Made by a program: the position numbers and the translations under genes | In this document: positions 2,687 to 26,317 of the stretch, one piece after another | How positions within the stretch are numbered: position 1 is the first letter of the stretch | Layout of the letters: each line of letters begins with the position of its first letter | The notes under the pieces: generated by a model | Told to the model about the DNA's origin: nothing | The model's input: the letters and a program-made list of their open reading frames with translations, nothing else | Databases searched by the model: none | Source: a virus | Direction: 5' to 3' (one strand) | Virus record (IMG/VR): IMGVR_UViG_3300031951_000869 | Location: 1-29,825 of that record | DNA length: 29,825 nt

Positions 2687-2747
2687 ACGAGTGTCCTTTA
2701 TTAATTATAATAATATAAATTTTTAAAAAGTGATACTTATTATTTGA

Positions 2748-4061: not shown

Positions 4062-4064
4062 AAT

Positions 4065-5201: not shown

Positions 5202-5205
5202 CATT

Positions 5206-6255: not shown

Positions 6256-6267
6256 AAATTTAATATT

Positions 6268-7464: not shown

Positions 7465-7475
7465 TATTTATAGAT

Positions 7476-7772: not shown

Positions 7773-7783
7773 TAATTATATAA

Positions 7784-10700
7784 GTGAGAAAATTATCAAC
7801 AGAACTAATTAAGAGTGGAAGTTTCCTTGGATCTTTCACAGGAAGTTTCAGTGGTAGTATAGATTATTCTATCACTGCAAGTTATGCATTAACTTCTAGT
7901 GTAACATCTTATGCTGACTATGCTGTTAGTTCTAGTTATACAACATTTGCATTATCCTCTCTTAGTTCTAGCAATTCTATTACTGCAAGTTATGCTGCAA
8001 ATGCACAAGCAAGAATTATTACAGGAAGTGGTGTTCTTACAACTGATTCATTTGATGATGTATCAGTTCAAAATTCTTATAATAATATAGTTACCGCATT
8101 TAAATCGCAAGAAGGAGAAGGATTATCAAGATACGATTTAATCAATGGATTTATTGACGATTTTAACAATGATCTTGGTATTTTTAAATCGTCTTCATTT
8201 TTCTTTTATCCAAGTGGTTCTTATGGATCAAAAGGATACTTTACAAATGAATTGCCATTGGGCGATTTATATTTTATTTATACAGATCTATTATTACATT
8301 TTAGTGGATCAAATAATACTACATCGTCCTTTGATTCTAGTGCAAGAAGTTCTAGTCTATTTTATTTTGGTGATGCAGTTGTAACATCTAGTCAATATAA
8401 ATTTAATAGTTCGTCATTATCTGTTAACGGAAATGGATTTATAACATCATCCGCATTAAATTTAGGATCTGATTATACCGTTGAATTTTGGGCTAGATCT
8501 ACAGTTTCTTCGTTCGTACCATCAAAAAATATATTTTCTCTTGGAAACGCTGGTATTTTTTCGCAAGATTCATCTAATAGCGTTCTGTGGAGTTTGTTAC
8601 CTTCAAGTGTAAATGTTCCTAGTATTAATAACTGGAATCATTATGCGTTTACTAGAACCAATAATATTATTAGATTTTATCTAAATGGTCAATTACAATT
8701 ATCTGGAAGCAATAGTTCCTCTGTTTCAAATGAAATTTTAAATTTGGGAAGAGCTTCTACAGGCGGTGGAACAACATATTGGAGTGGTTTTATTGATGAG
8801 TTTAGAGTTACAGGTGATGTTTCTAGATATCAATCAAATTCATTTACAACACAATCTATTGAGTTTTATGATAATATAGGATCAGATCCTACAGGCAGTG
8901 CATTTTCTAGTTCGTTGTTTACTGATTATAAGTTGTGTAATACAAATGTAGAAAATGTAAGTGTAGTAATATTAGCAGAACCAGTTACGTCTTCGTTTAA
9001 CTTAAATAATAATTTTAATTTATATATTACGAAAGACAGTGGTAGTACCTATTATGGTTCTGTTCTTTCTTCAGGATCTTTTTATAGTTCAAGTATACAA
9101 ATATATACTTCAACATTGAATTTATCATATCTTACCGCATCTAATTTTATAGGAATTGCAATTAGTTCATCTGTCAGTCCTGTAAGAATATATGGTGTTG
9201 GTGTTGTTTCAAACAAAAGTTTAAGAAGAACTACATTAGCAACGACAGGCTTGGTTGGTATCAATTTTACAACCGCATCTAGTAATGGAGTATCATCAAG
9301 TTATAATATTGGAGATACTACATATGATATATCCAATACGATGGTTTTTTTGAGTGGATCTTCAATGATTCCATACAAAGATTTTACATTAACAGATGGT
9401 CAATTGGCACTCACATCTGTACCAGACACAAATCAAAAAATCTCATTATTTAAATTTACATCATTAGTTGCTGAGTCTAATCCTAATACATCTGTTATTG
9501 ATTTACAAAATATTGATGTAGCAATAAGTCAATCAGTATTTACATTAAGTCAACAAGTAACTATACCAAAAAATATAATAGTTACCAATAACGGATTAGT
9601 AAAAAATCTGTCCGTAGATTATACGATTTCTGGTAGTAGATTTTTAGTATTTAATTCTCTTCAAACACCAGGAGATAAAATTACTGTTAGATATATAAAT
9701 TCGGTTGGAAATGCTAATATTGAAGTTTATAAGTATACTGGAAATGGAATTTCGTCAAGCTTCAGCGTATCATCTAGTTTAAATAATCCAAATGGATTGT
9801 TGGTAAGTATTAATGGTATATTACAAACACCAACAACGCACTATTATATTGATAGTTCTTCTTATTATGATTCGGTAGTTTTAGATGCTGCACCAAGAGC
9901 GGGAAGTTTAATTGAAATTAGAAAAATTCAATATGCATCTCCATATTCAACGTTAACTTCAAGTTTTTCAACCACTGCTAGCTATGCATTAAATGCAGAT
10001 GTAAGTCTAACAGCAAGTAATTTAGTACAAAATGTATTATTAAATTTTAGTCAAAGTCAAGAGTATACACTTACAAATTTGCCATTAGATGGTAATAATT
10101 GGAACATTAATATAATTGATGAGTGGAATTCAGGCAGTGTTGTATTGGATCAATTTTATGATTCATGTAGTTTGTTACTACATTTTAGTGGATCAAATCA
10201 ATCCAGAACATTTTTGGATAACAGTAAAAATAACTATACCGTTTCTATTAGCGGATCTCCTGTAATAAGTACACAAAGATATAAATTTACAAATTCTAGT
10301 TTATTTTTAACAAATAATTCATTTTTATATTATTCTCCAATATTACCTACTGCAAGTGCATTTACTGTTGAAACATGGGTATATCCAATTAATTATTCAA
10401 ATCAACCAGTGGTTTGGTCTCAAGGAACTGGATATCCACTTGGATCTAATAGAACACAATTATATATTAATTCAAATGGAAATGTAATTGTTCAAAATGG
10501 TGTTAATATAATTACATCATCAAATGTTTTGCCTGTTAGTGAATGGACAAACATTGCATTTGTAAAGTCATCTAGTTTTCAGTATTTATATATTGATGGT
10601 ACTTTGGCTGCAAGTGGTTCAATTTCTGATGTAGAAAGTGCTCCATTTTTAATAGGAAACAATTATCTTTTAACTTCTCAATTTTTTAACGGTAATATTG

Positions 10701-11464
10701 ATGAATTTAGAGTAACAAATTATCCAAGATACACTTCCAATTTCACACCTAGTAATGCAAGATTTAATGATACATCATCTGCTGTACAACCTTTTGTAAG
10801 ATTATACGCAACTGTAGGTGGTTTGAATGACAATTATGTAGATTATGGAGTTCAAAAATTATCAGATACTTCTTTAAAAGTAGTAAGATTAACAAAAACA
10901 ACTCCACTTTTAAGTGGTTCTTTATATCTATCCGATTCACCCAATACAACTTATATTAATGTTGTAGATAATTCAAAAGCATTAATTCAAGTATTAAGAT
11001 CGGCGTATGCTACTTCTGCGTTAACTTCAAGTTTTGCTATTACTTCAAGTTTTGCAAGTACAAGTTCATATTCATCACTTGCAAAAACAAGTGAATCTTC
11101 AAGTTACATTAGTGCAAGTATAATAAATGTTACGGGTTTGATGAGAATTACTGGTTCGTTACAGATTTCTGGTTCTTCTTCAGGAGTGTATTTGTTTACA
11201 CAATCAATTGCATCATCTACGTGGAATATTACACATAGTCTTGGTTCTAGATATCCTGTGATTCAAGTATATAGTGCAAGTTACCAATCAGTATCTCCTA
11301 ACGATTATACAATAACATCAGTAGATGAAAATAAAACTAGACTAGTGTTTACAGGTTTAGTTACAGGAAGTGCGACCATTATGGCTACTCCTGTAAGTGT
11401 AATATCTACAACACTAAGATCAACCACAATATTTACTCCAAATAATATAGTATTTGGAATTTAA
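7784..11464 (+). CDS. Giant tail fibre protein with two LamG-like lectin domains
   Basis: This 1226-residue protein starts at GTG 7784 (no ATG nearby; the sequence MRKLSTELIKSGSFLGSF is a typical fibre start). Residues 10-75 are 'SGSF.GSF.GS..YS.TASYALTSS' repeats. Two LamG/concanavalin A-like jelly-roll domains follow, at about 167-360 and 790-995; each has 'LLLHFSGS', a 'YTVEFWA' or 'FTVETWVY' strand, an 'NxWNHYAFTR' or 'EWTNIAFVKS' strand, 'FYLNGQL' or 'LYIDGTL', and 'FIDEFRVT' or 'NIDEFRVT'. Between them are two 'VNGILQTPTTHY'-type fibre modules. The C-terminus (about 1130-1226) carries 'STWNITHSLGSRYPVIQVY', a tip module. LamG domains usually bind glycans, so this is likely a receptor-binding tail fibre. 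Confidence 0.8.
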   Translation: MRKLSTELIKSGSFLGSFTGSFSGSIDYSITASYALTSSVTSYADYAVSSSYTTFALSSLSSSNSITASYAANAQARIITGSGVLTTDSFDDVSVQNSYNNIVTAFKSQEGEGLSRYDLINGFIDDFNNDLGIFKSSSFFFYPSGSYGSKGYFTNELPLGDLYFIYTDLLLHFSGSNNTTSSFDSSARSSSLFYFGDAVVTSSQYKFNSSSLSVNGNGFITSSALNLGSDYTVEFWARSTVSSFVPSKNIFSLGNAGIFSQDSSNSVLWSLLPSSVNVPSINNWNHYAFTRTNNIIRFYLNGQLQLSGSNSSSVSNEILNLGRASTGGGTTYWSGFIDEFRVTGDVSRYQSNSFTTQSIEFYDNIGSDPTGSAFSSSLFTDYKLCNTNVENVSVVILAEPVTSSFNLNNNFNLYITKDSGSTYYGSVLSSGSFYSSSIQIYTSTLNLSYLTASNFIGIAISSSVSPVRIYGVGVVSNKSLRRTTLATTGLVGINFTTASSNGVSSSYNIGDTTYDISNTMVFLSGSSMIPYKDFTLTDGQLALTSVPDTNQKISLFKFTSLVAESNPNTSVIDLQNIDVAISQSVFTLSQQVTIPKNIIVTNNGLVKNLSVDYTISGSRFLVFNSLQTPGDKITVRYINSVGNANIEVYKYTGNGISSSFSVSSSLNNPNGLLVSINGILQTPTTHYYIDSSSYYDSVVLDAAPRAGSLIEIRKIQYASPYSTLTSSFSTTASYALNADVSLTASNLVQNVLLNFSQSQEYTLTNLPLDGNNWNINIIDEWNSGSVVLDQFYDSCSLLLHFSGSNQSRTFLDNSKNNYTVSISGSPVISTQRYKFTNSSLFLTNNSFLYYSPILPTASAFTVETWVYPINYSNQPVVWSQGTGYPLGSNRTQLYINSNGNVIVQNGVNIITSSNVLPVSEWTNIAFVKSSSFQYLYIDGTLAASGSISDVESAPFLIGNNYLLTSQFFNGNIDEFRVTNYPRYTSNFTPSNARFNDTSSAVQPFVRLYATVGGLNDNYVDYGVQKLSDTSLKVVRLTKTTPLLSGSLYLSDSPNTTYINVVDNSKALIQVLRSAYATSALTSSFAITSSFASTSSYSSLAKTSESSSYISASIINVTGLMRITGSLQISGSSSGVYLFTQSIASSTWNITHSLGSRYPVIQVYSASYQSVSPNDYTITSVDENKTRLVFTGLVTGSATIMATPVSVISTTLRSTTIFTPNNIVFGI

Positions 11465-11485
11465 ATTTGTTAGATATATATTAAT

Positions 11486-14380
11486 ATGGCAAGAACGCAA
11501 ATTAATCAATATATTTTTACACCGTCTGGTCCAGGATCAGGCATCGTAAAAGTACCAAATTGTGTAGATTTATCCAAATTGTTATTAATTCAAAATATAA
11601 CATCAGGCGTAACAATTTATAATTTTAGTGATCCATTAGCAAGTGCTAGTAGATCTTTTAATCCGTTTGATACGACTACATTTCCAAACAGTTTAGATGG
11701 ATGTACTACATTTACTTTAAGTGCGGATACATCTGGACAAAGTTCTACAGATGTATTGTCTATTTATATAGAGTCAGATGTAATAAATGTAGCATTGCCA
11801 ACAATAGGAACAGATGCGGTAAATAAAACAAGAGTTTCTACTGCGTTTTCTTTAATTGATGCGGATTTTGAATATGGTATTCAAAATACAAAATGGCAAT
11901 CTGCAGGTGCATCAAGAGGAATACCTTCAGTATTTGAATTACCAGGTGGAGATATTACTATATTTTCTGTAACTAGTAGTGGAACAAATCCATCACAAAT
12001 ACAAGTTTCATGTTCAGTTTCTCATAGTTTAAGAGCAGGATCTGTATTTAGTATTTTTGGATTAGATGGATCATCTACTGACCGAGCAGAAGGATTTTTT
12101 GTGGTCGCATCAACTGCATCTGCTACTTTATTTAATTATGAATCTAGAGGACGAATACTTCCATCAGGTAGTAATTTATCAACTACATATTCAAATTTAA
12201 GAGCCGGTGGATTTTATGCATCTTCTGCATTACCTGTCATTAGCTTAATCGGTAATAATGTTTCTCCTACATCTTCACTCACCGCATCAACATCATCTCC
12301 ACATGGACTAGTACCAGGCGCACCATTAATTATTACAGATACAGGTTCTTTTGGACACGTTGGACAATTTTTCGTTGAAAATGTTCCTGACGGTAATACA
12401 TTTATATTTACATCCAAATCACAACAAAGTGGATCTCAAGTTATAAGTTCTGCATCATTTTATGCAAGAAACGAAAGTTTTTTCATCCATAGACCTTTTG
12501 ACGGTGGTGTTTTGTTAGGTACTGCCTTACCAATATATGGTTTAGAAGCAAAAAGACAAAGTAAACGATATTTTAGATATCAATCAGGCAAAAGTATAAT
12601 GTGGTCAACAGGTGTTTTATTTGCACCTTCATTTGATATTAATAATGCAACATATAGTTCATCTTATATTACAATTAATACTGATCCAGAACACTATTTA
12701 CAAAAAGGAGCAACTATAAAATTAAGTGGAATTAATTCATTTGGTTATAGTGGTAGTTTTAGAGTATATGACATTTTGAACAGCAATTCATTTAGAATCA
12801 GTTCGTCAAATGGAACTCCTGCAGATGTCACAGGTTCTTTATCTCTACAACCAAAAATTAGCGTTACAAATTGGATAGGTGCAAATGTAAGAGCAGGTTT
12901 GTTTGATGATTCAAATGGAATGTATTTTGAATATGATGGCAATACATTGAGTGTAAATAGAAGAACGTCTACTTTACAATTAGCTGGAACAATATCTGTT
13001 ACACCAAATTCATTTCAAATTACTGGATCTGGCACTAGGTTCTCACAACAATTAAAAACAGGCGATTCTGTAAATATAAGAGGAATGTTATATACCATCA
13101 GTTCCATCTTCAGTGATAATTTAATGACGATTGTACCTGCATATAAAGGGGTGAGATCTTTTAATTCATTAAAAATGTCATTGGTATCAGATTTAAAAAT
13201 TCCTCAATCTCAATTTAATATAGATAAACTAGACGGTACTGGTCCATCAGGATATGTTCTTGATATATCAAAAATGCAAATGATGGCATTGCAGTATAGT
13301 TGGTACGGTGCAGGATATATTGACTTTGGATGTAGAGGTCCGATAGGTGATTATATTTGGTGTCATAGAATAAAAAATAACAATGTGAATAGTGAAGCTT
13401 TTATGCGATCAGGTAACTTACCTGCTCGTTATGAGTCTTCAAATTATGCAGCAATTTCTACATTAGTTTCATCTTCTGGATTTGGAAATAATAATTTATT
13501 TATTTCTGACGGTAGATATTTTCCAACCGCATCTGTTGAATATCCTGTTCAATGTTTATTAACAAGCAATCAAAGCGGAACAATTTATAATGAAATTATA
13601 TCATATACAAATATTACATCAAGCGTTGGCAATTCTCTCATTTTAGGAGGCGTAACTAGAAATACAACATACAGTCCATATATTTACCAAGAATTTAAAA
13701 ATTTTACTGGAGCTAATATTTCACTAAATCATCCATCAGGTAGTACAATATTTGTTTATAGTAATACATTTGCTCCTACTCTAAGTCATTGGGGAAGTTC
13801 TGTAATAATTGATGGTAATTTTGATCAAGATCGTGGATATCAGTTTAATTTATCCAGAACAAATGTATCACTGTCTGCCAATCAGACATCAACAGTTTTA
13901 TTATTTAGATTGGCACCAAGTGTAAGTAATACTATACAAGGTGATTTAGGGGATAGAGAAATTATTAACAGATCTCAGGTTTTGTTAAAAAGATTAGAAG
14001 TTACTGCTACCGCAAAAATGGAAGTTTATGGAGTTCTTAATCCTACTAACATTTCATCTTCTTTCGGATATACATCATCAGCTGCAGTACAAGTTCAAGG
14101 ATCAAATGTAACTGCAACTCAACCATCCTTTAGTCAATATAGTACTTCATTCACATCAGCACCAACTCAAGGTGAAATATTGTTTCGTATAACTGTTCCT
14201 GCATCTGCAGCCTTAAAGAGTGAAATTGATTTGACTCAAGTAAAAGATTTAAATAATAGTATATTTGGTGGTAGAAATACATTTCCTGATGGTCCCGATG
14301 TTTTAGCTATTGTAGCAACATGTGGAGCTAGCACAGGTATATTAGATTTGTTATTACAATGGCAAGAAGCTCAGGCTTAA
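11486..14380 (+). CDS. Large virion structural protein of marine T4-like type
   Basis: This 964-residue protein begins MARTQINQYIFTPSGPGSG. At about 330-380 it holds FFIHRPFDGGVLLGT and KRQSKRYFRYQSGKSIMWST, and at about 575-655 it holds KLDGTGPSGYVLDISKMQMM, SWYGAGYIDFGCRGP and AFMRSGNLPARYE. I recognise these blocks from large structural proteins of cyanophage-like and other marine T4-like myoviruses, where they are tail or baseplate associated. Three degenerate beta modules precede or flank them (near 155-220, 245-315, 390-445), each with 'L..G....I.......G.F.V......F.....'. It sits between the lectin fibre and the tail tube gene region. The exact place in the tail is not known to me. Confidence 0.75.
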   Translation: MARTQINQYIFTPSGPGSGIVKVPNCVDLSKLLLIQNITSGVTIYNFSDPLASASRSFNPFDTTTFPNSLDGCTTFTLSADTSGQSSTDVLSIYIESDVINVALPTIGTDAVNKTRVSTAFSLIDADFEYGIQNTKWQSAGASRGIPSVFELPGGDITIFSVTSSGTNPSQIQVSCSVSHSLRAGSVFSIFGLDGSSTDRAEGFFVVASTASATLFNYESRGRILPSGSNLSTTYSNLRAGGFYASSALPVISLIGNNVSPTSSLTASTSSPHGLVPGAPLIITDTGSFGHVGQFFVENVPDGNTFIFTSKSQQSGSQVISSASFYARNESFFIHRPFDGGVLLGTALPIYGLEAKRQSKRYFRYQSGKSIMWSTGVLFAPSFDINNATYSSSYITINTDPEHYLQKGATIKLSGINSFGYSGSFRVYDILNSNSFRISSSNGTPADVTGSLSLQPKISVTNWIGANVRAGLFDDSNGMYFEYDGNTLSVNRRTSTLQLAGTISVTPNSFQITGSGTRFSQQLKTGDSVNIRGMLYTISSIFSDNLMTIVPAYKGVRSFNSLKMSLVSDLKIPQSQFNIDKLDGTGPSGYVLDISKMQMMALQYSWYGAGYIDFGCRGPIGDYIWCHRIKNNNVNSEAFMRSGNLPARYESSNYAAISTLVSSSGFGNNNLFISDGRYFPTASVEYPVQCLLTSNQSGTIYNEIISYTNITSSVGNSLILGGVTRNTTYSPYIYQEFKNFTGANISLNHPSGSTIFVYSNTFAPTLSHWGSSVIIDGNFDQDRGYQFNLSRTNVSLSANQTSTVLLFRLAPSVSNTIQGDLGDREIINRSQVLLKRLEVTATAKMEVYGVLNPTNISSSFGYTSSAAVQVQGSNVTATQPSFSQYSTSFTSAPTQGEILFRITVPASAALKSEIDLTQVKDLNNSIFGGRNTFPDGPDVLAIVATCGASTGILDLLLQWQEAQA

Positions 14381-15799: not shown

Positions 15800-16291
15800 A
15801 TGGCAGACCTATTAAATAGTAACGAAATCTTCTTTAGCACATTTGAACCAAAAGTTAAAAACAGGTTCATTTTGTACTGTGACGGTATCCCAAGTTTTTT
15901 GATTAAGAAGTGTAAGAGACCATCACCAAAAAGCGAAAAGAAAACTCTTGACCATATCAACATTCAAAGATATTATAAGGGTAAGACCACTTGGGAAGAT
16001 ATAAACATGGAATTATATGATCCAATTGTACCATCTGGTGCTCAAACAGTAATGGAGTGGATTCGTCTTGGGCACGAATCTGTTACTGGGCGTGATGGTT
16101 ATAGTGATTTTTATAAAAAAGATTTGACTATCAATGTTCTTGGACCTGTTGGTGATAAAGTAGAAGAATGGACACTTAAAGGTGCATTTATCACTAGTGC
16201 AGATTTCGGTGAATTGGATTGGAGTGATAGTGGTGAAGCAATGACAATTAGTTTAACTTTAAGCGTAGATTATTGTATTTTACAATATTGA
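15800..16291 (+). CDS. Tail tube protein (T4 gp19-like)
   Basis: This 163-residue protein matches the T4 gp19 tail tube family in length and layout: N-terminal NRFILYCDGIPSFLIKKCKR, then 'YYKGKTTWEDINMELYDPIV' (the tube-fold strand with the K-x-T-W pattern), 'WIRLGHESVTGRDGYSDFYK', and C-terminal 'LKGAFITSADFGELDWSDSG' with 'ISLTLSVDYCILQ'. Hexameric rings of this protein stack to form the inner tube through which DNA leaves the head. It has a Shine-Dalgarno box at 15784-15789 and an intrinsic terminator 20 bases after the stop, which fits a protein needed in high copy number. It lies apart from any sheath gene, which would be outside this window. Confidence 0.9.
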   Translation: MADLLNSNEIFFSTFEPKVKNRFILYCDGIPSFLIKKCKRPSPKSEKKTLDHINIQRYYKGKTTWEDINMELYDPIVPSGAQTVMEWIRLGHESVTGRDGYSDFYKKDLTINVLGPVGDKVEEWTLKGAFITSADFGELDWSDSGEAMTISLTLSVDYCILQY

Positions 16292-16347: not shown

Positions 16348-16367
16348 TACAAGGATATTTATTGTAT

Positions 16368-17213
16368 ATGAAGAAACATGTAGCATTTGCATTTGGTAGA
16401 TTCAATCCTCCTACGGTAGGACATAAAAAGTTAATTGATACGGTAGTTGATGCATCAGATGGTGGTGATTTTTATATTTTTACAAGTCAATCACAAGATC
16501 CTGATAAAAATCCACTTGATTATCAAACCAAAGTAAGTTTTTTAAAGAAACTATTTCCTAGTATACAAGATAAGATTGTATACGATATGACAATCAAGAA
16601 TGTACTACAAGCCGCAGATAAATTAAAGGCAAATGGTTATACTGATGTTACATTTGTTTGTGGTAGTGATAGAGTACCAGAATTTACAAAGTTATTGAAT
16701 ACTTGGAATGGTATGGATAAAACACCAAGATTTGGTACTTTAAACATTGTAAGCAGTGGTGAAAGAGAAGATGGTGCAGAAGGAGTAGAAGGTGTAAGTG
16801 CCAGTATGGCTAGAGAATTTGTTAAAAACAACGATTTCGAATCATTCAAAGGTACTGTACCAAACAACCCTCAATTGGCAAAAGAATTATTTGATGCAGT
16901 AAAACAAGGAATGGCAACATCAAAGAAAAAGATTAAGGAGTGTCTTATACGACTTATCAGTGAAATATTGAGTGAAGATGATTCTAAAGTTAAACAAGCG
17001 GTTAAAAAAACTAATCAAGCATTGTATCAACAAAGACAGGTTGAAAAAAGAGATGCACAAGATAAATTGAAAATAGCCGCAGCCAAACAAAAAATGGCTA
17101 AGTCAATTGATGACAGAAAGAAAGCTGGGGAAGAATTTACAAAAGCCAAAGATGTAGTAAAATCAAAAGATGATTTGGTAAAAGCTGCTCAAAAACAAGT
17201 TCAATCGTCTTAA
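16368..17213 (+). CDS. NMN/nucleotide adenylyltransferase-like protein with helical tail
   Basis: This 281-residue protein starts at ATG 16368 (MKKHVAFAFGRFNPPTVGHK), which puts the nucleotidyltransferase T/HxGH motif (TVGH, residues 16-19) at the expected distance from the start. Further marks are 'TFVCGSDRVPEF' near residue 100 and an SxSMAR block near 145-150, the counterpart of the ISSTxxR motif. The fold is that of NMN adenylyltransferase and cytidylyltransferases, which join NMN or a similar group to ATP or CTP. From about residue 187 a non-enzymatic tail follows: KKIKECLIRLISEILSEDDS, then about 75 charged, Ala/Lys-rich residues likely to form a coiled coil. Substrate is not certain. 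It lies between the tube and gp26-like genes, and GATATTTATT stands before the start. Confidence 0.75.
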   Translation: MKKHVAFAFGRFNPPTVGHKKLIDTVVDASDGGDFYIFTSQSQDPDKNPLDYQTKVSFLKKLFPSIQDKIVYDMTIKNVLQAADKLKANGYTDVTFVCGSDRVPEFTKLLNTWNGMDKTPRFGTLNIVSSGEREDGAEGVEGVSASMAREFVKNNDFESFKGTVPNNPQLAKELFDAVKQGMATSKKKIKECLIRLISEILSEDDSKVKQAVKKTNQALYQQRQVEKRDAQDKLKIAAAKQKMAKSIDDRKKAGEEFTKAKDVVKSKDDLVKAAQKQVQSS

Positions 17214-17274: not shown

Positions 17275-18111
17275 ATGGACGACTATACAATTCCTATTAC
17301 AAAACCAGCCAGTCAATTTGCTGGAAATGTTTCTCAACAAAAACAAGAAACTACATATCCATCCGAAGTGGTTGATTTGCCAAGTCAAGGTCATTTTTAT
17401 GATCATTCAAGTCCATTGAGTAATGGTACTATTAATTTAAAGGTAATGACTGCCAAAGAAGAAGATATTCTTACCAATCAAAATTATATCAAAAAAGGTA
17501 TTGTATTGGATAAATTGATTGAGTCACTTATAGTAGATAAAGATATAAAACTTGATGATTTGTTATTAGGAGATAAAAATGCTATCTTTGTAGCTACCCG
17601 AAGATTTGCTTATGGCGATAGTTATGGGCCACTTCAGATTAAATGTCCATCATGTAGAGAAAACAATGAATGTACATTCAATTTAGGTGAATTAAAGTAT
17701 AAAGATGTAGATATATCAAAGTATCCACCAGGATCAAATCAATTTGACTTTGTTTTGCCATATTGTAAGAAAACGGTAACTTGTAAATTATTAACATCTG
17801 GAGATGAAAAACAAATTGATAATGAATTGAAGATGTTACAGAAAATTAAAACAGGTAATACTTCAGAAGTTACCACCAGATTAAGATACACAATTATAGC
17901 TATTAACGGAAATACTGACAAAGCAGAAATTAAGAAATTTGTTGAAAATGAATTTACTTCCAGAGATAGTTTGGAACTGAGAAAAACTATTAAAGAAATT
18001 ACACCCGACGTAGATCTTAATTTTGATTTCAAGTGTGAACAATGTAATCATGAGGAAAGGATAGGTGTACCGCTAACGGTACAGTTTTTTTGGCCTGACT
18101 CCGGCAGATAA
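17275..18111 (+). CDS. T4 gp26-like baseplate hub/tail assembly protein, zinc-binding
   Basis: This 278-residue protein carries the hallmark block of the T4 gp26 family: 'VVDLPSQGHFYDHSSPLSNG' (about 32-51) followed by MTAKEEDILTNQ and KKGIVLDKLIESLIVDK (about 58-90). It has two CxxC pairs, Cys124/Cys127 (CPSC) and Cys254/Cys257 (CEQC), likely forming one zinc ribbon, and ends with VPLTVQFFWPDSGR. T4 gp26 is needed for hub assembly, yet to my knowledge is not seen in the finished T4 baseplate structure, so an assembly role is likely. The frame ends in a T7 run, after which a second frame continues toward the tape measure; see the frameshift entry. A strong hairpin precedes the start. Confidence 0.85.
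   Translation: MDDYTIPITKPASQFAGNVSQQKQETTYPSEVVDLPSQGHFYDHSSPLSNGTINLKVMTAKEEDILTNQNYIKKGIVLDKLIESLIVDKDIKLDDLLLGDKNAIFVATRRFAYGDSYGPLQIKCPSCRENNECTFNLGELKYKDVDISKYPPGSNQFDFVLPYCKKTVTCKLLTSGDEKQIDNELKMLQKIKTGNTSEVTTRLRYTIIAINGNTDKAEIKKFVENEFTSRDSLELRKTIKEITPDVDLNFDFKCEQCNHEERIGVPLTVQFFWPDSGR
18085..18092 (+). promoter_or_regulatory. Candidate +1 programmed frameshift site (seven T)
   Basis: The gp26-like frame reads CAG TTT TTT TGG and stops seven codons after the T run. A tRNA-Phe on TTT 18088-18090 can move one base forward onto TTT 18089-18091 with perfect pairing, and the next codon is then GGC, which continues in the frame of the small downstream gene. A -1 slip would hit TGA 18096-18098 after two codons, so +1 (or -2) is the only productive shift. 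A single-base error in the T run during sequencing is the alternative. Confidence 0.55.
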
Positions 18112-18316
18112 GTTGTTGATTCACGAGCAGATATTTAGTCTATCATATCATTCACAAGGTGCGTTTACACAGGATATTGTATATAAATTACCTGTGTTCT
18201 TGAGAATTTTCTATTTAAAGAAGCTAATAGAAACAAAAGAAAAGGAAAAAGAAGCTATGGAAAAGGGATCAAAGTCTTCTGATAAATCTGTATCAAAGAA
18301 TCCTAGAGGAAAATGA
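18092..18316 (+). CDS. Frameshift extension / small tail assembly chaperone upstream of tape measure
   Basis: This frame is open from 18077 to TGA 18316 but has no ATG or GTG start; the only in-frame candidates are TTG codons at 18113 and 18116 without a Shine-Dalgarno box. Read across the T run it gives QFF-GLTPADKLLIHEQIFSLS, a smooth continuation that looks like real protein rather than untranslated sequence. The rest is SYHSQGAFTQDIVYKLPVFL, then RIFYLKKL and a Lys/Glu/Ser tail. It lies directly before the tape measure gene, the fixed place of frameshifted tail assembly chaperones (gpG/gpGT of lambda, E/E' of P2). I infer a fusion of the gp26-like protein with this extension that would bind the tape measure. 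Independent initiation at TTG cannot be excluded. Confidence 0.6.
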   Translation, partial: GLTPADKLLIHEQIFSLSYHSQGAFTQDIVYKLPVFLRIFYLKKLIETKEKEKEAMEKGSKSSDKSVSKNPRGK

Positions 18317-18357: not shown

Positions 18358-20769
18358 ATGGCAACGCCTTTAGAAACATTAACTGAAAGTCAATTAAAGT
18401 TGGAAAGAGAACAACTGGAAAACGCACAGACACTTTCAGATACTGAAAAACAGAGATTGCAATTTATTACAGATAGACTTTCTGCACTTGACGAAGAAAG
18501 ATCTAAAACAAAAGATTTAGCAAACAGTTTATCTAAACTATTAAAATTAGAATCGTCTCAAAGTGAAATACTTAAATCCACTGTAATTTCATTCGGAGAA
18601 ATGGGTGAGCGTGCTTCAAATTTATATAAAACTGTATTAAATTTAAAAAATCCTTCTACAATATTTTTGGAATTGTTGAAATTATCTGTAGATAGATTTA
18701 TAGAATTAGATAAAGCCGGTCAATCTTTCAGAGAAACTACGGGGTTTTTAGCGGATCAAACATCAAATGTAGAAATTACGTTAAGAAGAACCAGTAGAGA
18801 TTTAGCAACATTTGGAGTAAATGTTGAAAATGCAAATGCCGCAGCCCAAAAGATAGCAGAAACATTTTCTAGTGTATCTCTAGTTACTGATGAAATAGTT
18901 GGTCATGTCGCATTGATGGAAAAAAACTTAGGTGTTTCTGTTGATGATAGTACAGCAGTAATGCAAAATTTCATGGGTATTGGACAACTTAGTTCAACTG
19001 TTGCTAATCAAACAGCTGCAGCTGCAGCAAGTTTATCAAAAGCAGCTGGTGTTCCTTTTAGTAAAGTGATGAAAGATGTTGCAACCGCAGGTGGTGAAGC
19101 TTATAAATTAATAAGAGGAAGTGTTGATGCTTTAATTAAAGGAGCAATTGAAGCTAGAAGACTTGGTTTAGAATTAAAAGATGTAGCTGCTGCTGCTGAT
19201 AAATTTTTAGATTTTCAAACTAGTATAAATAGTGAAATGGAAGCCAGTGTACTTTTTGGAAAAGATATAAATTTTACTAGAGCAAGAGAATTGTCTTATG
19301 CTGGTGATTTGGCTGGATTAGCAAAAGAACAGTCTAGAATCTTAAAAGAAGTGGGTAATTTAAGAAAACTTGACGCATTTCAAACAAAAGCATTAGCAGA
19401 ATCAATGGGGTTAAGTGTAGACCAATTGATAAAAATGAATGCTAAGCAAGAAGAATTAAATGAATTAAGAAGGAAGAATCCAGATTTAGCTGCACAATAT
19501 GAAAAAGATTTGGATGTATTAAATGCAACAAATGAAACGTTGGAACAAAAAGCCAAGAGAGAAATTCAGTCAAGACAAATAGCAAGTCAACAACAAAAAA
19601 TAATGAATGACATTCAACAAATTATGGTTGAATTGAGCGAAATATTATTGCCTATTGTTAAATTGTTTTTTGCGATATTGGTTCCAGTTATTAAAATTGG
19701 TGCAGCTTTAGTAAAACTTATTCTTACTCCTATACGACTAATTAATGATTCGTTAGAAGGGTGGTACAAAAATTCTGAAACATTTAGAAATGGCATTAAT
19801 AGTATTGCTTCTGGATTTCAAACAGCAGTAAATTCAATGGATACAGAAATAGGAAAATGGGTAGGCGGTATAATTGGTTCGATTGTTATTATAGGTTATA
19901 TCATAAAAAAAGAGTTAATTCAAAATATGTTGAGTTATTTGAAACTTTTTAAAAATATACCTGCTACAATTCCAACTCCCACGACATCACCAGTTACTGG
20001 TTTATCTGCACAGAGATCATTTAGATCTGGACTGCTTCAAATTCCATCGGCAGCTACATCGTCTGCTGCAGTAACTGCTCCTACTGCACCAGGTGCAGGT
20101 GCAGCTGGATTTATGAATTCAACAAAAGGAATTAATCCTGCGACTGTATTATCATTGGGTGCAGCATTAATTATGTTTGCTGGTTCTATGTATATTTTGG
20201 CAAAAGCCGGACAACAATTTAACACTGTAGATTGGAGTTCGCTTGGAAAGATGGGTGCTATATTGGCTGTATTAGGTGCAACTATAGCGACTTTGATGTA
20301 TACTGGAGTATTAGAAACTGCTGCTGGTGGTATTGCTTTATTGGGACTTGCATTTATACCATTTGCAATATCCGCAATGGCTGCTGGCAAAGCTATGCAA
20401 ATGTTTGGTCAAGGGATTGAATCTATTGGTACTGGAATAAAAGATATAGCTGCAAATATATCTGCTCTCGCATCTTTGGATGATACATTGTCAATATTTA
20501 AAGATGCTAGTTTAATTCTTGGTATTTATGCGATGGCAAATGCTATAGGCGCACTTAATACTGAATTGAATGGAGTTGCTACTAATTTACCTGCGTTAAA
20601 AAATTTAGAATCTATTAGAACTGCAACTGGTGGTGGAAACGGTGAACTTGTTGCAAAATTGGATGAATTGATCATATTGATGAAAAATGGTGGTATTGCG
20701 GTTAATCTGGATGGTACCAAGGTAAGTACTGCACTTGGTGTTGCTACAAAATTTAGAGGTGCATATTAA
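18358..20769 (+). CDS. Tape measure protein (T4 gp29 role)
   Basis: This 803-residue protein has the features of a myovirus tape measure. Residues about 1-130 are helical and likely coiled coil (ESQLKLEREQLENAQTLSDT onward); about 130-420 are helical with Ala/Lys-rich segments; hydrophobic stretches follow at about 420-465 (ILLPIVKLFFAILVPVIKIG), 501-518 (VGGIIGSIVIIGYIIK), 594-620 (VLSLGAALIMFAGSMYILAK) and 630-680 (AILAVLGATIATLMY, GGIALLGLAFIPFAISAMAA). The membrane-like segments are typical of tape measures that act during DNA delivery. It sets tail length during assembly. It is longer than T4 gp29 (590 residues), so a somewhat longer tail than T4 is expected. The putative chaperone frame lies just upstream and the tube initiator just downstream. 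Confidence 0.85.
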   Translation: MATPLETLTESQLKLEREQLENAQTLSDTEKQRLQFITDRLSALDEERSKTKDLANSLSKLLKLESSQSEILKSTVISFGEMGERASNLYKTVLNLKNPSTIFLELLKLSVDRFIELDKAGQSFRETTGFLADQTSNVEITLRRTSRDLATFGVNVENANAAAQKIAETFSSVSLVTDEIVGHVALMEKNLGVSVDDSTAVMQNFMGIGQLSSTVANQTAAAAASLSKAAGVPFSKVMKDVATAGGEAYKLIRGSVDALIKGAIEARRLGLELKDVAAAADKFLDFQTSINSEMEASVLFGKDINFTRARELSYAGDLAGLAKEQSRILKEVGNLRKLDAFQTKALAESMGLSVDQLIKMNAKQEELNELRRKNPDLAAQYEKDLDVLNATNETLEQKAKREIQSRQIASQQQKIMNDIQQIMVELSEILLPIVKLFFAILVPVIKIGAALVKLILTPIRLINDSLEGWYKNSETFRNGINSIASGFQTAVNSMDTEIGKWVGGIIGSIVIIGYIIKKELIQNMLSYLKLFKNIPATIPTPTTSPVTGLSAQRSFRSGLLQIPSAATSSAAVTAPTAPGAGAAGFMNSTKGINPATVLSLGAALIMFAGSMYILAKAGQQFNTVDWSSLGKMGAILAVLGATIATLMYTGVLETAAGGIALLGLAFIPFAISAMAAGKAMQMFGQGIESIGTGIKDIAANISALASLDDTLSIFKDASLILGIYAMANAIGALNTELNGVATNLPALKNLESIRTATGGGNGELVAKLDELIILMKNGGIAVNLDGTKVSTALGVATKFRGAY

Positions 20770-20790: not shown

Positions 20791-23100
20791 ATGGCAAACC
20801 TTAATAATTTAGAATCACCCGCTCCATTATCTACTACCAATACACAAATTATTGGTGCAGGTTATACATTGCCATCTGGATTTAATGATTTAAGACAGCC
20901 TGGGGAATTGAGTGTATTATATGCTCAAAACAGTGATGCAATTTATAACAAGTATAAATTACAAACTGATAGTACCAATCCCCTTTTAAAGTTTGGACCA
21001 AAACAACCATTTTTTAGTTTTACTCCAAATACAGGAACAAAAGGATTAAATTCATTAAAAAAATATGAAAATAGAGCTGCACCAGTTGGTTCAGGTCCAC
21101 AAGACATATTAAGAATAACAAAATTTACAATTAGTGCAAATGGTGTAATTTTTGCTACTGCACAAACATTACTACAAGGATTTAATCCATTTCCTGAAAC
21201 AAAAGTTTATAATCCAGCAATGCCAATATTGGCTGCTACTAGTATTGCTTCATTGGGATTAATTGAAAGACCAACTAGATTTATTGAACCAAATGGTATT
21301 GGCGCATTAGCTGCTCTTGGTTTAAAAGGCTCTTTAAAAAATCTTACTCCACCAAAAGGAACTGTTGGTAACAGTAATCAAGCTGCATTATCAAAGTTAA
21401 GTTTAGATGGTGGTAAAGGATTTTTAAGAGCACCAACAGCAACTGCGGGAGATAAATCATTAAAAACAAAATGGGTAGGAAAACAATCTTCCTCTGGAAT
21501 TGCTGATTTCTTTAAATCAAGCACATTATTTGGCGCATTTACAAATCCTAAACAACCAAACGATCCTTTATACAGAGCAGATGAAGCAACATATGGTGTA
21601 ATGGCATCCACCACTGCTGTATTTGAACAACCAACCGGAACTTTAAAACATACATTTGATAAGAAAGTAATACAAAAATGGTATGCTGGTACTAGTGATA
21701 ATACTGTAAGAAAAGGTGACACTGACGAAACAACTGGTGTTAGAGGCAGATATTTTAGACAAGCTGACGGTACTTATTTATTAATTGGTAAAAGAGGACC
21801 ATGGGAAGGCACATCAATTGGTACATTTCCAAAAATATTTGGTCAAGAAGTTGAACTTTCTTTAAGATATGATGCATATCAATTTTATGGAAAAGCAGTT
21901 GGATATAATATTGAACCAAATCAAGAATTTAAAAATTCTGAAATGTTGATTAATTTGGCATATTATGCAGATTCAAAACAAAAATATCCAACTAAATTTA
22001 TAGATAAAGAATCTGATGCGGTAAAGAATATAGAAGACAATTTAAAACAAGTAATTGATAATATCAAAAGTGCAGGATATAAATTTGAAGGAGAAACTGA
22101 AAATGATTTGATTAATCCACAATTTTCAGATGGAAAATTAAAAGGATATGATTATATCAGTGAATTGACAAAGGATATATATTCACAAAAACAAAAAGTA
22201 AATCCATTAAATTATAATAAAGGTGCTTATATTAGAAAATTTGCATTTGGTAAAAGAAAATTATTATTGGATGATATTGAAGGAAAAGGATTTTCAGGTG
22301 CAAAATACGGAGATAAAATTAATTTATTAGAAGTTTTATCCGAAGAATTATTTAAAGAAAAATATTCAGAAGATAATGATTTAATAAAATTTTATTTTAA
22401 TGATATTGTAAATAATAAATATATTCCGTTTAGAGCCACAGTTACTGGATTGAATGAAAATTTAAATGCGGATTGGTCGCCAATTGAATATATTGGGAGA
22501 GCTGATAAATTACAATCATACAAAGGATTTTCAAGATCATTAAGTTTTAAATTCAATGTTGTTGCTAATAGTATAAAAGAATTGTTGCCAATGTGGCAAA
22601 GAATTAATTACTTAGTAAGTTTGACCAAACCAGCTAATTATACACAAGGTGATCAAACCAATAATAATATATATTCTAAATTTATGATACCACCATTGGT
22701 TAGATTTACAATTGGCGATATATACAAAAATCAACCTGGAGTAATTAAAAGTATTGGATTAAATATACCAGATAATTGTGTATGGGAAACATTAAGTGAA
22801 GAATATGCCGAAAAAAATGATTGGAGTTATTTAAATGGCGCATTTACACCAAGTGGAGTGATACAATGGACTGATAGCAAAGGAAAATATGCACAATTTC
22901 CACGAGAATGTGAATTAAATTTACAAATGGATTTATTGGAAAAAGAAAGACCTATTGTTGGTGGAAATAATTTTGGTAATTCTGTTAGACAACTTAATGC
23001 GCAAGGTGATTATATAAATCCAAATAATAGTGATTCATTTTCTAGAAAAATACTTGTAGTAGATGAACAGTTTGCAAACAATGTTCAAGTACCTGCTTAA
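20791..23100 (+). CDS. Tail tube initiator/baseplate cap protein (gp48/gp54-like C-terminus)
   Basis: This 769-residue protein has an N-terminal part of about 540 residues that I do not recognise (MANLNNLESPAPLSTTNTQI...) and a C-terminal domain with FRATVTGLNENLNADWSPIE, YIGRADKLQSYKGFSRSLSF, VVANSIKELLPMWQRINYLV, then PPLVRFTIGDIYKNQPGVIK, WETLSEEY and FPRECELNLQMDLLE. This block resembles T4 gp48/gp54 and related proteins, which join the baseplate hub to the first ring of the tail tube. It follows the tape measure, as gp48 and gp54 follow gp29 in T4. At 769 residues it is about twice the size of T4 gp48 or gp54, so it may combine two functions or carry an added domain. Confidence 0.7.
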   Translation: MANLNNLESPAPLSTTNTQIIGAGYTLPSGFNDLRQPGELSVLYAQNSDAIYNKYKLQTDSTNPLLKFGPKQPFFSFTPNTGTKGLNSLKKYENRAAPVGSGPQDILRITKFTISANGVIFATAQTLLQGFNPFPETKVYNPAMPILAATSIASLGLIERPTRFIEPNGIGALAALGLKGSLKNLTPPKGTVGNSNQAALSKLSLDGGKGFLRAPTATAGDKSLKTKWVGKQSSSGIADFFKSSTLFGAFTNPKQPNDPLYRADEATYGVMASTTAVFEQPTGTLKHTFDKKVIQKWYAGTSDNTVRKGDTDETTGVRGRYFRQADGTYLLIGKRGPWEGTSIGTFPKIFGQEVELSLRYDAYQFYGKAVGYNIEPNQEFKNSEMLINLAYYADSKQKYPTKFIDKESDAVKNIEDNLKQVIDNIKSAGYKFEGETENDLINPQFSDGKLKGYDYISELTKDIYSQKQKVNPLNYNKGAYIRKFAFGKRKLLLDDIEGKGFSGAKYGDKINLLEVLSEELFKEKYSEDNDLIKFYFNDIVNNKYIPFRATVTGLNENLNADWSPIEYIGRADKLQSYKGFSRSLSFKFNVVANSIKELLPMWQRINYLVSLTKPANYTQGDQTNNNIYSKFMIPPLVRFTIGDIYKNQPGVIKSIGLNIPDNCVWETLSEEYAEKNDWSYLNGAFTPSGVIQWTDSKGKYAQFPRECELNLQMDLLEKERPIVGGNNFGNSVRQLNAQGDYINPNNSDSFSRKILVVDEQFANNVQVPA

Positions 23101-23104
23101 TTTT

Positions 23105-23401
23105 ATGAATAGATATACATTTGCACAACAAGATAAGAGATGGGATGGAAAGAGGGTATATAAGTCATTATTATATCCAGTGATACCTGTTGCTTATAAT
23201 GACATATATGTTATAACAAATGAAGTATCTACTTTTGATGCTTTGGCTAATAAGTATTATAAAGATCCTACATTATGGTGGATATTGGCTCAAGCTAATA
23301 ATTTAGGCAATGGTAGATTGAGTGTACCAGCAGGTATTCAATTAAGAATCCCACAAAATATTTATAATATTATAGGAGATTTTAAGTTATTAAATTCATA
23401 A
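23105..23401 (+). CDS. Baseplate wedge protein, gp53-like with LysM-type fold
   Basis: This 98-residue protein starts at ATG 23105 (MNRYTFAQQDKRWDGKRVYK), four bases after the previous stop; earlier in-frame codons overlap that gene and are less likely. Residues about 33-83 form a LysM-like module: 'DIYVITNEVSTFDALANKYY', 'DPTLWWILAQANN' and 'LSVPAGIQLRIP'. In T4 gp53 a LysM-like domain binds the baseplate wedge subunits together, and small LysM proteins in tail clusters of many myoviruses do the same. Its position between the tube initiator and the hub gene fits. The 'YKSLLYPVIP' segment before the LysM part is also seen in gp53-like proteins. Peptidoglycan hydrolysis is not expected as no catalytic domain is present. 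Confidence 0.8.
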   Translation: MNRYTFAQQDKRWDGKRVYKSLLYPVIPVAYNDIYVITNEVSTFDALANKYYKDPTLWWILAQANNLGNGRLSVPAGIQLRIPQNIYNIIGDFKLLNS

Positions 23402-23404
23402 GTT

Positions 23405-26317
23405 ATGGCAACAACACCAGATAATAGACCGTGGGCACCACATCCAATACCATCTTGGGTAATTAAAGAATTTACAAGAAGACAGAATGATATTGGTTTT
23501 GAATATCCAGTACCCGTAAGTATTAATTGGGATGATAATGGTAATTGGCAAACATACAAAGGTCCAATGACTGCTTGGGCAAGAGTATTTTCAAATGGAA
23601 CCGGTAGAGTAAGTGATAAAAGCAATTTTCCTAGCAGAAATGGTTTTATTTTGCATGGAGGCGAAGGATTTGATAAAAGTTATGGTGTTGTTAATAATAG
23701 AAATGTATTGGGATATGATTCTGAAGGTGTAGAACATGTATTGGATTTATCAAGTGATGGTAATTTTGTTTCATTTCCAAATTCGTTATCAAATGAAAAT
23801 AGAACCGTTCAAAAGTTTTTGCCTGTTCCTGGTATCACATCTATTGATGCGGTAATACAAAAAGAAAGAATCAGAAAAGTTACTGTTAATTGGAAATGTT
23901 ATGGTTTTGCTCAATTGGAATATATGACTCCATATTTTCTATCTCCAAAAATAAGTGCATTTGTTGAATTTGGATGGAATCACTTCAATCCTTCGTCATT
24001 ACTTGATTTAAGAGCTCGTAATTTAGACAATTTAAAAGAATTGTTTACCAATAGCGGATCTTTATTATATGATCAAAATATAAGAAATTCCTATGGATTG
24101 TATGACGTAACAATGGGAATAATTAGTGGATTTGATTTTAGTAGTCAAGATGGTATTACATACGAATGTAAGACTGAAATATTATCTAAACATGCAAATT
24201 ATTCAGGTGTATTAGTTAATACTGCAGCAAAAGTTTCGTCTGATAAAAATAAAAGTTCTGTTCAATCTACCTTTGCAGAATATTTAGAAAAAAGGTTGAC
24301 TAAAATACCAAATTGTATTTTACAGAAAAAAAATTTCATGGACCCGTTGGATGCAGAAGAAGAAAAAGCACAAAAAAATTTAACATTTTTATCGTCAACT
24401 TTTCCATTTTATAAATATGATAATGGAAACTATACTAGAAAATCAAGCGATGGTAAAGATGTAAAAAGACCTGAAGATAGATTTTTCATGGGAAGAAGAT
24501 TAGAATATGGCGATTCTGCAAGAATGTCAGGAATGGCAGATTATGATTGGGATAGAAAGGATCAAAAAGATATATGGGTTACTATGGGATTTGTTGTGGA
24601 ACTTGCAAATGTATTTTTTAACAAACAAATTAATATACAATTAAAAGATGCTAAAGATTATAATTTATATGAAATTGATATTGACGATGTAAAAATAGGA
24701 GCACATCCAAATTTAATTTCATGTGATGGTAGTATTTTATTAATTCCAAATCAAAAAGCACCTAAATATAATCTTGGAGCTATGTTTCCAACAGTAGATC
24801 CTACCAATAATGATTATCAAAAACAAAAATTTGGAAAAGGTGCAAATTTATCTTTGTTTTTTTCTGAAAAGTTAGGTACTCCATTTTCTTCTTTATATGA
24901 TAATACTTTATTTAGAATATTTAGAACTGGATATCAACCATTTAATCCTACATATGAACCAGATTACTTTCAAAGATTGCTTGATACTCAAATAGAAAAT
25001 AGTTTAATTTTAAAATATGTTGGTAAACGAAGTGATGCGCAAATCATAGAAGATAAAGGAAAACAACCTATTTTACTTCAAGTTTTTAGAGATAATTTGG
25101 ATGGTATAATTAATAGATTTATATATGATAACGATCCTGCTCAAGGAACAAAATCATTTCCTCAATGGGTGGATGACAGTGAAACTCAGAAACCAGCAGG
25201 TTATTGGGGTTATCTAAAAGATTTATATGTAAATAAAAATGTATTAATTGAATGTGCAAAATCTTCAGATACGGTTGAAATATTTTATAACTCATTGTTA
25301 GGAAAAATTAATGCAGCTGCAGCTAAAATATGGGAACTTGCAGTAGTAGAAGACAGTGAAGATTCTGGTAAATTGAGAATTGTGGATAAAAAGTACGTTC
25401 AATATAATAAAATGAAAATCTATCAATTTGATGTAGGTGCATCAAATAATTTCATTAAAAGTATTAATTTCACTGCACAACTTTCAAATGTAGCAGCAAA
25501 CCAAGTAATTTCATCCGCATCGTCAAATAAAACATCAGATAATAATTCTCCGAATGGTGAAGTAAATTCAAATCAAATACTTTTATTTCCATATGGTGAT
25601 AGATTCAATAAAGATGTTCCTTTACAATTAAGAAAAATAGATGAGAACTTAGAAAGTATAAGACAATTGCAAAACAGTCCACAATCATCAACTGCGACAA
25701 AAGGTTCTTATATAATGTCGTTTAAATCATATATATCAAGAGCTGCGGCAGCAACTGCAACATCCGGGCCAAGAACAACTACTCCTCTAAATCCAAACAA
25801 TCCTGCACCACCTTCAAGAGCTGCAGCTTCTGGTCCTAGAACCACTACACCATTAAATCCAAACAATCCTGTACCACCTTCAAGAGCTGCGGCAGCAACT
25901 GCAACATCCGGGCCAAGAACAACTTCCCCATTAAATCCAACAGTATCAGGAGTTGAAAGTGGATGGAACATAGTGAATTTGGTATTACCAAATGATTCAT
26001 TATTAATTGCAATAATGAACGATATGGATTTTACAAATAACACTAATATTTATGGTGGACAACAGCCAGGATTTACTGTAGAAATGACATTACAGGGTAT
26101 ATCTGGATTAAGAACATTTCAATTATTTAGTTTAAAAAACTTACCAAGTCCATACTCTGAAAGAGAAATTATTTGTCAAATTGTAGATGTATCACATAAA
26201 GTTGACGCTGGTAATTGGACAACTACAATAAAAGCAGGTATTCGTTCAATTAGAGGACAATCAATATCATTTACTACTGACGGTACAAATGAATATTCAA
26301 TTAATATAATAAAATGA
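23405..26317 (+). CDS. Very large baseplate hub-like protein with Pro/Ala repeat linker
   Basis: This 970-residue protein has an N-terminal region (about 130-270) with RIRKVTVNWKCYGFAQLEYM, PKISAFVEFGWNHFNPSSLL and a following strand-rich section, resembling structural hub proteins of marine T4-like phages. A flexible linker at about 778-845 carries SRAAAATATSGPRTTTPLNP repeats. The C-terminal about 115 residues (LPNDSLLIAIMNDMD, TVEMTLQGISGLRTFQLFSL, EREIICQIVDVSHKVDAGNW, then TTTIKAGIRSIRG) match the pattern of the C-terminal hub domain found in many contractile tail hubs. No lysozyme or other hydrolase motif is visible, so cell-wall degradation must lie elsewhere if present. The stop overlaps the next start (ATGA). 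Function in the hub is inferred from motifs and order. Confidence 0.65.
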   Translation: MATTPDNRPWAPHPIPSWVIKEFTRRQNDIGFEYPVPVSINWDDNGNWQTYKGPMTAWARVFSNGTGRVSDKSNFPSRNGFILHGGEGFDKSYGVVNNRNVLGYDSEGVEHVLDLSSDGNFVSFPNSLSNENRTVQKFLPVPGITSIDAVIQKERIRKVTVNWKCYGFAQLEYMTPYFLSPKISAFVEFGWNHFNPSSLLDLRARNLDNLKELFTNSGSLLYDQNIRNSYGLYDVTMGIISGFDFSSQDGITYECKTEILSKHANYSGVLVNTAAKVSSDKNKSSVQSTFAEYLEKRLTKIPNCILQKKNFMDPLDAEEEKAQKNLTFLSSTFPFYKYDNGNYTRKSSDGKDVKRPEDRFFMGRRLEYGDSARMSGMADYDWDRKDQKDIWVTMGFVVELANVFFNKQINIQLKDAKDYNLYEIDIDDVKIGAHPNLISCDGSILLIPNQKAPKYNLGAMFPTVDPTNNDYQKQKFGKGANLSLFFSEKLGTPFSSLYDNTLFRIFRTGYQPFNPTYEPDYFQRLLDTQIENSLILKYVGKRSDAQIIEDKGKQPILLQVFRDNLDGIINRFIYDNDPAQGTKSFPQWVDDSETQKPAGYWGYLKDLYVNKNVLIECAKSSDTVEIFYNSLLGKINAAAAKIWELAVVEDSEDSGKLRIVDKKYVQYNKMKIYQFDVGASNNFIKSINFTAQLSNVAANQVISSASSNKTSDNNSPNGEVNSNQILLFPYGDRFNKDVPLQLRKIDENLESIRQLQNSPQSSTATKGSYIMSFKSYISRAAAATATSGPRTTTPLNPNNPAPPSRAAASGPRTTTPLNPNNPVPPSRAAAATATSGPRTTSPLNPTVSGVESGWNIVNLVLPNDSLLIAIMNDMDFTNNTNIYGGQQPGFTVEMTLQGISGLRTFQLFSLKNLPSPYSEREIICQIVDVSHKVDAGNWTTTIKAGIRSIRGQSISFTTDGTNEYSINIIK
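25736..25942 (+). repeat. In-frame tandem repeat encoding Pro/Ala linker
   Basis: Three units start at 25736 (78 bases), 25814 (66 bases) and 25880 (partial, to about 25942), all in codon phase. Units 1 and 3 share their first 45 bases exactly, while unit 2 lacks twelve bases and differs at synonymous sites. The unit encodes SRAAAATATSGPRTTTPLNP and then a few more Asn/Pro residues. Its GC content is above the local average, and the identity of units 1 and 3 suggests recent copying within the gene. Confidence 0.85.

Follow-up and report, generated by a model that had tools for sequence, protein, structure and literature searches.

The question raised by this locus is whether a single phage gene gives rise to two proteins. 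The DNA analysed here is a stretch of 29,825 nucleotides from the virus record IMGVR_UViG_3300031951_000869 (positions 1 to 29,825), referred to below as the window. It contains a gene for a protein resembling phage T4 gp26 (17275..18111, + strand), and a second, overlapping frame lies between the end of that gene and the gene for the tape measure protein. An earlier note, made from the sequence of the window, proposed that the two frames are joined by a programmed +1 frameshift. Comparison with related phages argues that the locus makes two tail assembly chaperones from one gene by such a shift, a reading to which we assign a probability of roughly 0.87; that the frameshift is real and in the +1 direction appears very likely.

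Anatomy of the locus

The gp26-like frame (frame 0) encodes 278 amino acids and ends GTA CAG TTT TTT TGG CCT GAC TCC GGC AGA TAA, with the CAG at 18082-18084 and the stop codon at 18109-18111. The run of seven T residues (18085..18091, + strand) forms the proposed slip site, UUU_UUU_U(GG), at which tRNA-Phe in the ribosomal peptidyl (P) site would move one base forward. When one T is dropped, the sequence reads FFGLTPADKLLIHEQ... and, starting with the GGC at 18092-18094, continues for 74 codons to a TGA at 18314-18316; this extension (18092..18316, + strand) would be a small helical domain with a role like that of the lambda T protein. The +1 frame opens at 18077, directly after a TAA at 18074-18076, and so the switch of frame must fall within 18077-18108. 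The predicted fusion has 346 amino acids (272 + 74). Just upstream of the T run is a hairpin, TGTACCG-CTAA-CGGTACA (18066..18083, + strand), with 7 base pairs and an RNA folding energy of -9.3 kcal/mol, which ends one base before the run. No tRNA genes were found in the window.

The earlier note had placed both frames at these same coordinates. Its further statement that the second frame has neither ATG nor GTG holds for GTG near the start of the frame, but there is one ATG at about 18257, near the C-terminal end, and two TTG codons lie at 18113-18118.

Conservation of the arrangement

Relatives were collected by searching viral contigs with the gp26-like protein, which gave at least 80 loci. 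The set analysed consists of 84 loci: 80 from contigs, the window, Flavobacterium phage immuto (L082), Microcystis phage Mel-JY01 (L083) and a 484-kb uncultured phage (L084); rows of annotated phage records were left out of the alignments. The group that carries the +1 site is a large one of T4-related, mostly uncultured phages, mostly of marine Bacteroidota, and the site is present in the isolate genomes of immuto and Mel-JY01.

All 84 loci share one arrangement, in which the slip codons are followed by TGG or TAC (once TTC), CCT (twice CCA) and a frame-0 stop codon 3-6 codons past the slip codon. The commonest form of the site is TTTTTTTGG (63 loci), followed by TTTCTTTGG (9), TTTTTTTAC (7), TTCTTTTGG (2), and TTCTTTTAC, TTTCTATGG and TTTCTATTC (1 each). 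Later searches added 23 loci with the site, including contigs from metagenome-assembled genomes of Flavobacteriales and Winogradskyella and a subgroup with TTCTTTTGG. At every site, in the 84 loci and the later 23 alike, the base after an in-frame UUU is U or C, and hence tRNA-Phe can step +1 with full pairing. What had been proposed for the window, namely the +1 direction with perfect re-pairing of tRNA-Phe, a two-product layout and a chaperone reading, is supported by the 84 relatives.

The frame beyond the site has the character of a coding sequence. In complete loci the +1 frame runs for 64-113 codons after the slip, and past the frame-0 stop codon it stays open for 59-109 codons (median 69) in every one of them, against a median of 10 for the other frame. 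Among the 79 complete loci, changes in the extension fall on codon positions 1, 2 and 3 of the +1 frame at 48, 36 and 59%, and one Y, one P and one R are invariant in the alignment. These substitutions show the extension evolving at the protein level, in the +1 frame.

Selection on the slip site and loss of start codons

The codons of the slip site are the least free of those compared. The second slip codon is TTT in 73 of the 73 cases where it encodes Phe and the first is TTT in 81 of 84, while TTT makes up 77% of Phe codons elsewhere in these genes. Among 65 conserved columns these two codons are the most synonymously fixed; the median share of the top codon is 63%. In addition, T never precedes the run in the 84 loci, though Asn and Asp codons at this place would be expected to end mostly in T. 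Under the codon usage of these genes this has a probability of about 1e-4, calculated on 19 lineages (one representative for each lineage below 55% identity). Absence of the T is what one would expect if the -1 heptamer T_TTT_TTT were being avoided. In the subgroup with TTCTTTTGG, where this heptamer is impossible, T does precede the site in 5 loci. The codon and base patterns together show a slip site under selection.

The earlier note had suggested looking in relatives for a conserved T run and for loss of start codons in the second frame. In the 84 loci the slip codons are the most synonymously conserved of the columns compared, and ATG is absent from the whole +1 frame in 15 of the 79 complete loci and from the part before about +100 in 52 of them. 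None of ATG, GTG and TTG occurs up to +45 in 37 of the 79. The conserved +1 peptide starts at the slip site itself, with GL or TL followed by the conserved stretch. In public annotation the small open reading frame (ORF) begins at a TTG inside gp26 in Mel-JY01, and well inside the domain in immuto.

RNA structure around the site

The 24-30 bases 5' of the run fold more stably than synonymous shuffles of the same sequence (mean z -1.36, median -1.64, 61 representatives), whereas earlier windows give z values between -0.4 and +0.2, except for an overlapping window at -15 with -0.73. Against dinucleotide shuffles the mean z of the 5' hairpin is -1.0 to -1.3 for the 61 representatives (-1.33 at best) and -1.1 to -1.25 for the 19 lineages; in the 24-base window, 44% of representatives lie within the best 5% of the shuffles. 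Structure downstream of the site is weakly better than chance in the +1 clade (mean z -0.2 to -0.8), and the downstream stretch of the window itself shows none beyond chance (z 0.16).

A mechanism can be proposed on this basis. We infer that shifting occurs in vivo, with an efficiency that would leave most ribosomes translating the gp26-like frame to its stop codon at 18109, yielding the short form of 278 amino acids, while ribosomes that pass over a single base shortly before the end of the gene would yield a second, longer chaperone. The 5' hairpin may contribute, as a hypothesis, by re-forming behind the ribosome and so favoring a forward over a backward slip. When the slip codon occupies the P site, the ribosome would still cover the 3' arm, whereas the 5' arm would just have emerged from the mRNA exit; given this geometry, re-formation of the hairpin would pull the ribosome forward. 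By analogy with lambda gpG and gpGT, coating of the tape measure protein would fall to the short form and recruitment of the tail tube protein to the long form.

Alternative explanations

The best surviving alternative, though an improbable one, is that no frameshift takes place and that the extension is encoded by a small gene of its own, whose translation begins by coupled re-initiation, either at a non-ATG codon or once the gp26 stop codon has been passed. About half of the loci have an ATG, TTG or GTG in the +1 frame up to +45, and separate small genes with an ATG beside the gp26 stop codon do occur in some relatives (L199, L205, L085, L187, L189 and Cygsa01, L092). Where a relative has such a gene, however, the gene lies in the other frame and no open +1 frame is left. 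Re-initiation also accords poorly with a conserved peptide that begins at the slip site and with the loci described above that lack start codons, and it would leave the T run free of synonymous selection, contrary to the observed fixation.

These exceptional relatives deserve comment, since the earlier note had named homologues whose small gene has its own ATG and Shine-Dalgarno box as evidence that would overturn its proposal. Homologues with such an ATG exist (L199, L205, L085 and L187-L189), but their small gene is in another frame and the open +1 frame has gone. In a tree of the domain, L199 and L205 branch within the +1 group; past the stop codon their +1 frame is not open, and their small gene lies in the other frame, its ATG placed 5-8 bases beyond the first base of the stop codon. 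A separate small gene in the other frame, also with an ATG of its own, occurs in L085 and L187-L189 as well, and L085, L187 and L189 are huge-phage-like. Because the +1 arrangement disappears where the small gene changes frame, the exceptions support the +1 rule. L199 and L205 have the appearance of a recent switch of strategy within the +1 group.

The remaining alternatives all run into the variants that break the T run, which argue against polymerase slippage, -2 shifting and sequencing error alike. Transcriptional slippage, in which RNA polymerase inserts an extra U or leaves one out at the seven-T run with help from the preceding hairpin, is a slightly poorer candidate than re-initiation. 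It draws on the seven-T run at 70 of 84 sites and on the hairpin before it in many lineages, a combination resembling an intrinsic terminator, but the run is interrupted at the other 14 (TTTCTTT, TTCTTTT, TTTCTAT), and 14 additional loci with TTCTTTTGG keep the hairpin. T runs of three or four are not known to support polymerase slippage. Furthermore, an in-frame UUU_Y at every site is a requirement of the ribosome and not of the polymerase.

Slightly less credible again is a -2 ribosomal shift in the style of phage Mu, which would enter the same reading frame with one extra residue (FFF instead of FF) and is workable on an uninterrupted run of seven T. In TTC TTT TGG and TTT CTT TGG, however, the P-site tRNA would mispair after a -2 step (TTT to TCT and CTT to TTC, respectively), whereas it pairs well after a +1 step. 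Finally, gene decay or a mistake in sequencing or assembly at an error-prone homopolymer can practically be set aside, because the 84 loci with the site come from many projects and include the isolate genomes and variants without a seven-base homopolymer, and the frame past the site is under protein-level constraint.

Several observations do weigh against a hairpin-assisted +1 shift in a chaperone gene. Two of the 84 loci (L054 and L084, with TTT CTA) could shift +1 on the first Phe codon alone, and the CTT variants are compatible with either a UUU_C or a CUU_U slip, the two being indistinguishable. The hairpin is absent at L013, L020 and L024, its register slides between lineages, and weak folding persists at its position in L199 and L205, where the +1 shift has been lost. 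The predicted gp26-like fold has no match at E<=0.001 among 350,542 PDB chains, and the extension has negligible profile similarity to the tail of T4 gp51 when the two are compared directly (E=0.13), the connection being bridged solely via other groups.

Protein families and predicted structures

The gp26-like protein is homologous to T4 gp26: residues 48-272 match PF12322 (T4_baseplate, the T4 gp26/gp51 family) with E=5.3e-15 and 56.1 bits against a cut-off of 24.5, and the protein matches the phrog_150 baseplate hub family with E=1.7e-15. The gp26-like part and the extension were folded separately by AlphaFold. The model of the former has a predicted local distance difference test score (pLDDT) of 86 and a predicted template modelling score (pTM) of 0.81, and of its fold matches the HK97 tail assembly chaperone 2ob9 has the highest probability. 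The match is weak (probability 0.21, template modelling score 0.47 on the target), and its pointing to a chaperone fold is suggestive only. Searching PDB sequences with a gp26 profile gave no relevant match. The extension is predicted to form three helices (pLDDT 83); alone it has no match in Pfam, PHROG or PDB, and it shows profile similarity to the small ORFs of relatives.

It is likely that the gp26-like protein is a chaperone, as the earlier note proposed, and this part of the proposal is in part already in print. T4 gp26 and gp51 are listed as hub assembly chaperones (PMC3004832), and their identification as T4 tail assembly chaperones is already published, as papers citing Vladimirov, Gautam and Davidson 2022 report.

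Neighboring genes

In the window the order is tail tube, nucleotidyltransferase-like gene, gp26-like gene, tape measure and further baseplate genes. The gp19-like tail tube gene (15800..16291, + strand) matches PF06841 (E=3.8e-7) and phrog_4542 (E=9e-28), and the tape measure gene (18358..20769, + strand), the presumed client of the chaperones, matches the phrog_167 tail length tape measure protein (E=6e-6). The gp26-like gene thus lies between tail tube and tape measure genes, the position of a frameshift-type chaperone, with the nucleotidyltransferase-like gene (16362-17213, with a GRFNPPTVGHKKL motif) intervening on the tail tube side. The short product would have a role like that of lambda gpG. 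A TATAATTTATG leader present ahead of both the gp26 and the tape measure genes is no commoner than chance predicts.

Elsewhere in the window, the adjacent baseplate-region genes at 20791-23100 and 23063-23401 share 38 bases, provided that the ATG listed for the second is its true start, and the product of the second matches phrog_7145 (baseplate wedge subunit). The protein encoded at 23405-26317 has tandem repeats, about SRAAATATSGPRTTTPLNPNNPxPP in three copies, at 25650-26000. A series of long Ser/Thr- and Gly-rich tail-fibre-like proteins, several of which share ITSSWA-type motifs, occupies 894-14380.

Comparison with known systems

Frameshifts in tail chaperone genes are mostly -1 (lambda, P2) or -2 (Mu), and T4 has been described as an exception without such a shift (PMC5009743). 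In lambda, the chaperone binds the tape measure protein but is missing from finished virions (PMC5009743). The present locus differs from these cases in that the predicted shift is +1 at UUU_Y and the hairpin is on the 5' side.

The gp26 genes of cyanophages and of Aeromonas, Vibrio and Rhizobium phages have an orthologous locus and layout with the small domain in an overlapping frame. In these phages gp26 ends with a T_TTT_TTC/T/G heptamer, a stem-loop follows on the 3' side and the -1 frame holds the gp51-like small ORF, whereas the small frame of the window is +1; the +1 loci have no X_XXY_YYZ heptamer with a small ORF in the -1 frame. The -1 set comprised cyanophage P-SSM5 and 80 contigs (cyanophage-type, L087 and L094-L173), the Aeromonas phiAS5 group (L089, L174-L177), Vibrio VmeM-32 (L090) and Rhizobium LG08 and RL38J1 (L088, L091). 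Among 15 representatives compared with mononucleotide shuffles, the stem-loop a few bases 3' of the heptamer has a mean z of -2.7 for +7 to +47, and there is no fold upstream of the heptamer (mean z -0.05). In the Aeromonas and Vibrio phages the conserved small-ORF peptide begins upstream of any usable ATG. Records of the -1 type annotate two genes, the second sometimes started inside the conserved domain (phiAS5) or omitted (VmeM-32). It is conceivable, although less likely than not, that related lineages shift in opposite directions by mirrored signals, with a 3' stem-loop for -1 and, for +1, a 5' hairpin that would close as its 3' arm emerges from the ribosome, pull on the mRNA and so favor a forward step from behind the ribosome.

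T4 shares the PF12322 domain but has two genes, one of them fused, in place of a single gene with a predicted frameshift. In the T4 locus (L086), gene 26 is at 4803-5429 and gene 51 at 5480-6229; PF12322 matches gp26 with E=8.8e-64 and residues 1-201 of gp51 with E=3.9e-52, and the C-terminus of gp51 matches the small ORF after gp26 in cyanophages (E=3.3e-7). These profile matches indicate that gp51 is a gp26 paralogue with the extension already fused, and in T4 each form therefore has a gene of its own, gp26 being the short one and gp51 the long one. In the tree the duplicated T4-type proteins cluster together, although the branches are long and the deeper joins unsure. The earlier note's reading needs an amendment here: at this position other T4-like phages have -1 signals, and T4 itself uses a duplicated gene.

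Part of this picture is in the literature: T4-like phages with one short and one fused chaperone gene are attributed to Vladimirov, Gautam and Davidson 2022 in PMC10885494, and PMC12846349 names that paper as the source for polyT -1 signals in the chaperone genes of T4-like phages. No +1 case in the gp26 family was found in the searchable literature, where Vladimirov 2022 is represented by the papers that cite it, and a search for frameshifts in the Flavobacterium phage group found nothing. A +1 shift in a T4-type lineage, and the mirrored layout of signals, are apparently new.

Mechanistically, there is a parallel in the bacterial release factor 2 gene prfB. UUU_Y is a +1-prone tetranucleotide in bacteria, and the prfB site is a conserved CUU_U, with UUU_U in a minority of species (PMC5009743). 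The proposed slip is likewise one of a P-site tRNA on YUU_U, and the CTT_T variants share the prfB tetranucleotide, which is limited to those 9 of the 84 loci. However, prfB has a stop codon in the aminoacyl (A) site and a Shine-Dalgarno-like stimulator, while 83 of the 84 loci have TGG or TAC in the A site and no shared Shine-Dalgarno-like element was seen at the site in the alignment. The tail chaperone of the myovirus HSTV-2 of Halorubrum is also very likely made by a +1 shift (PMC5009743); that virus infects an archaeon, and the likeness is one of mechanism.

The orthologous locus therefore displays four routes to the same pair of proteins, namely a +1 shift, a -1 shift, a separate coupled gene and a duplicated, fused gene, and so offers a natural experiment on how the direction of a shift is set. 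In genomes of the +1 type, such as those of immuto and Mel-JY01, gene callers miss or truncate the long chaperone. The T4-type phages, described as the exception among frameshifting tail chaperones (PMC5009743), would thus include a group with an unannotated frameshift in the rarer +1 direction.
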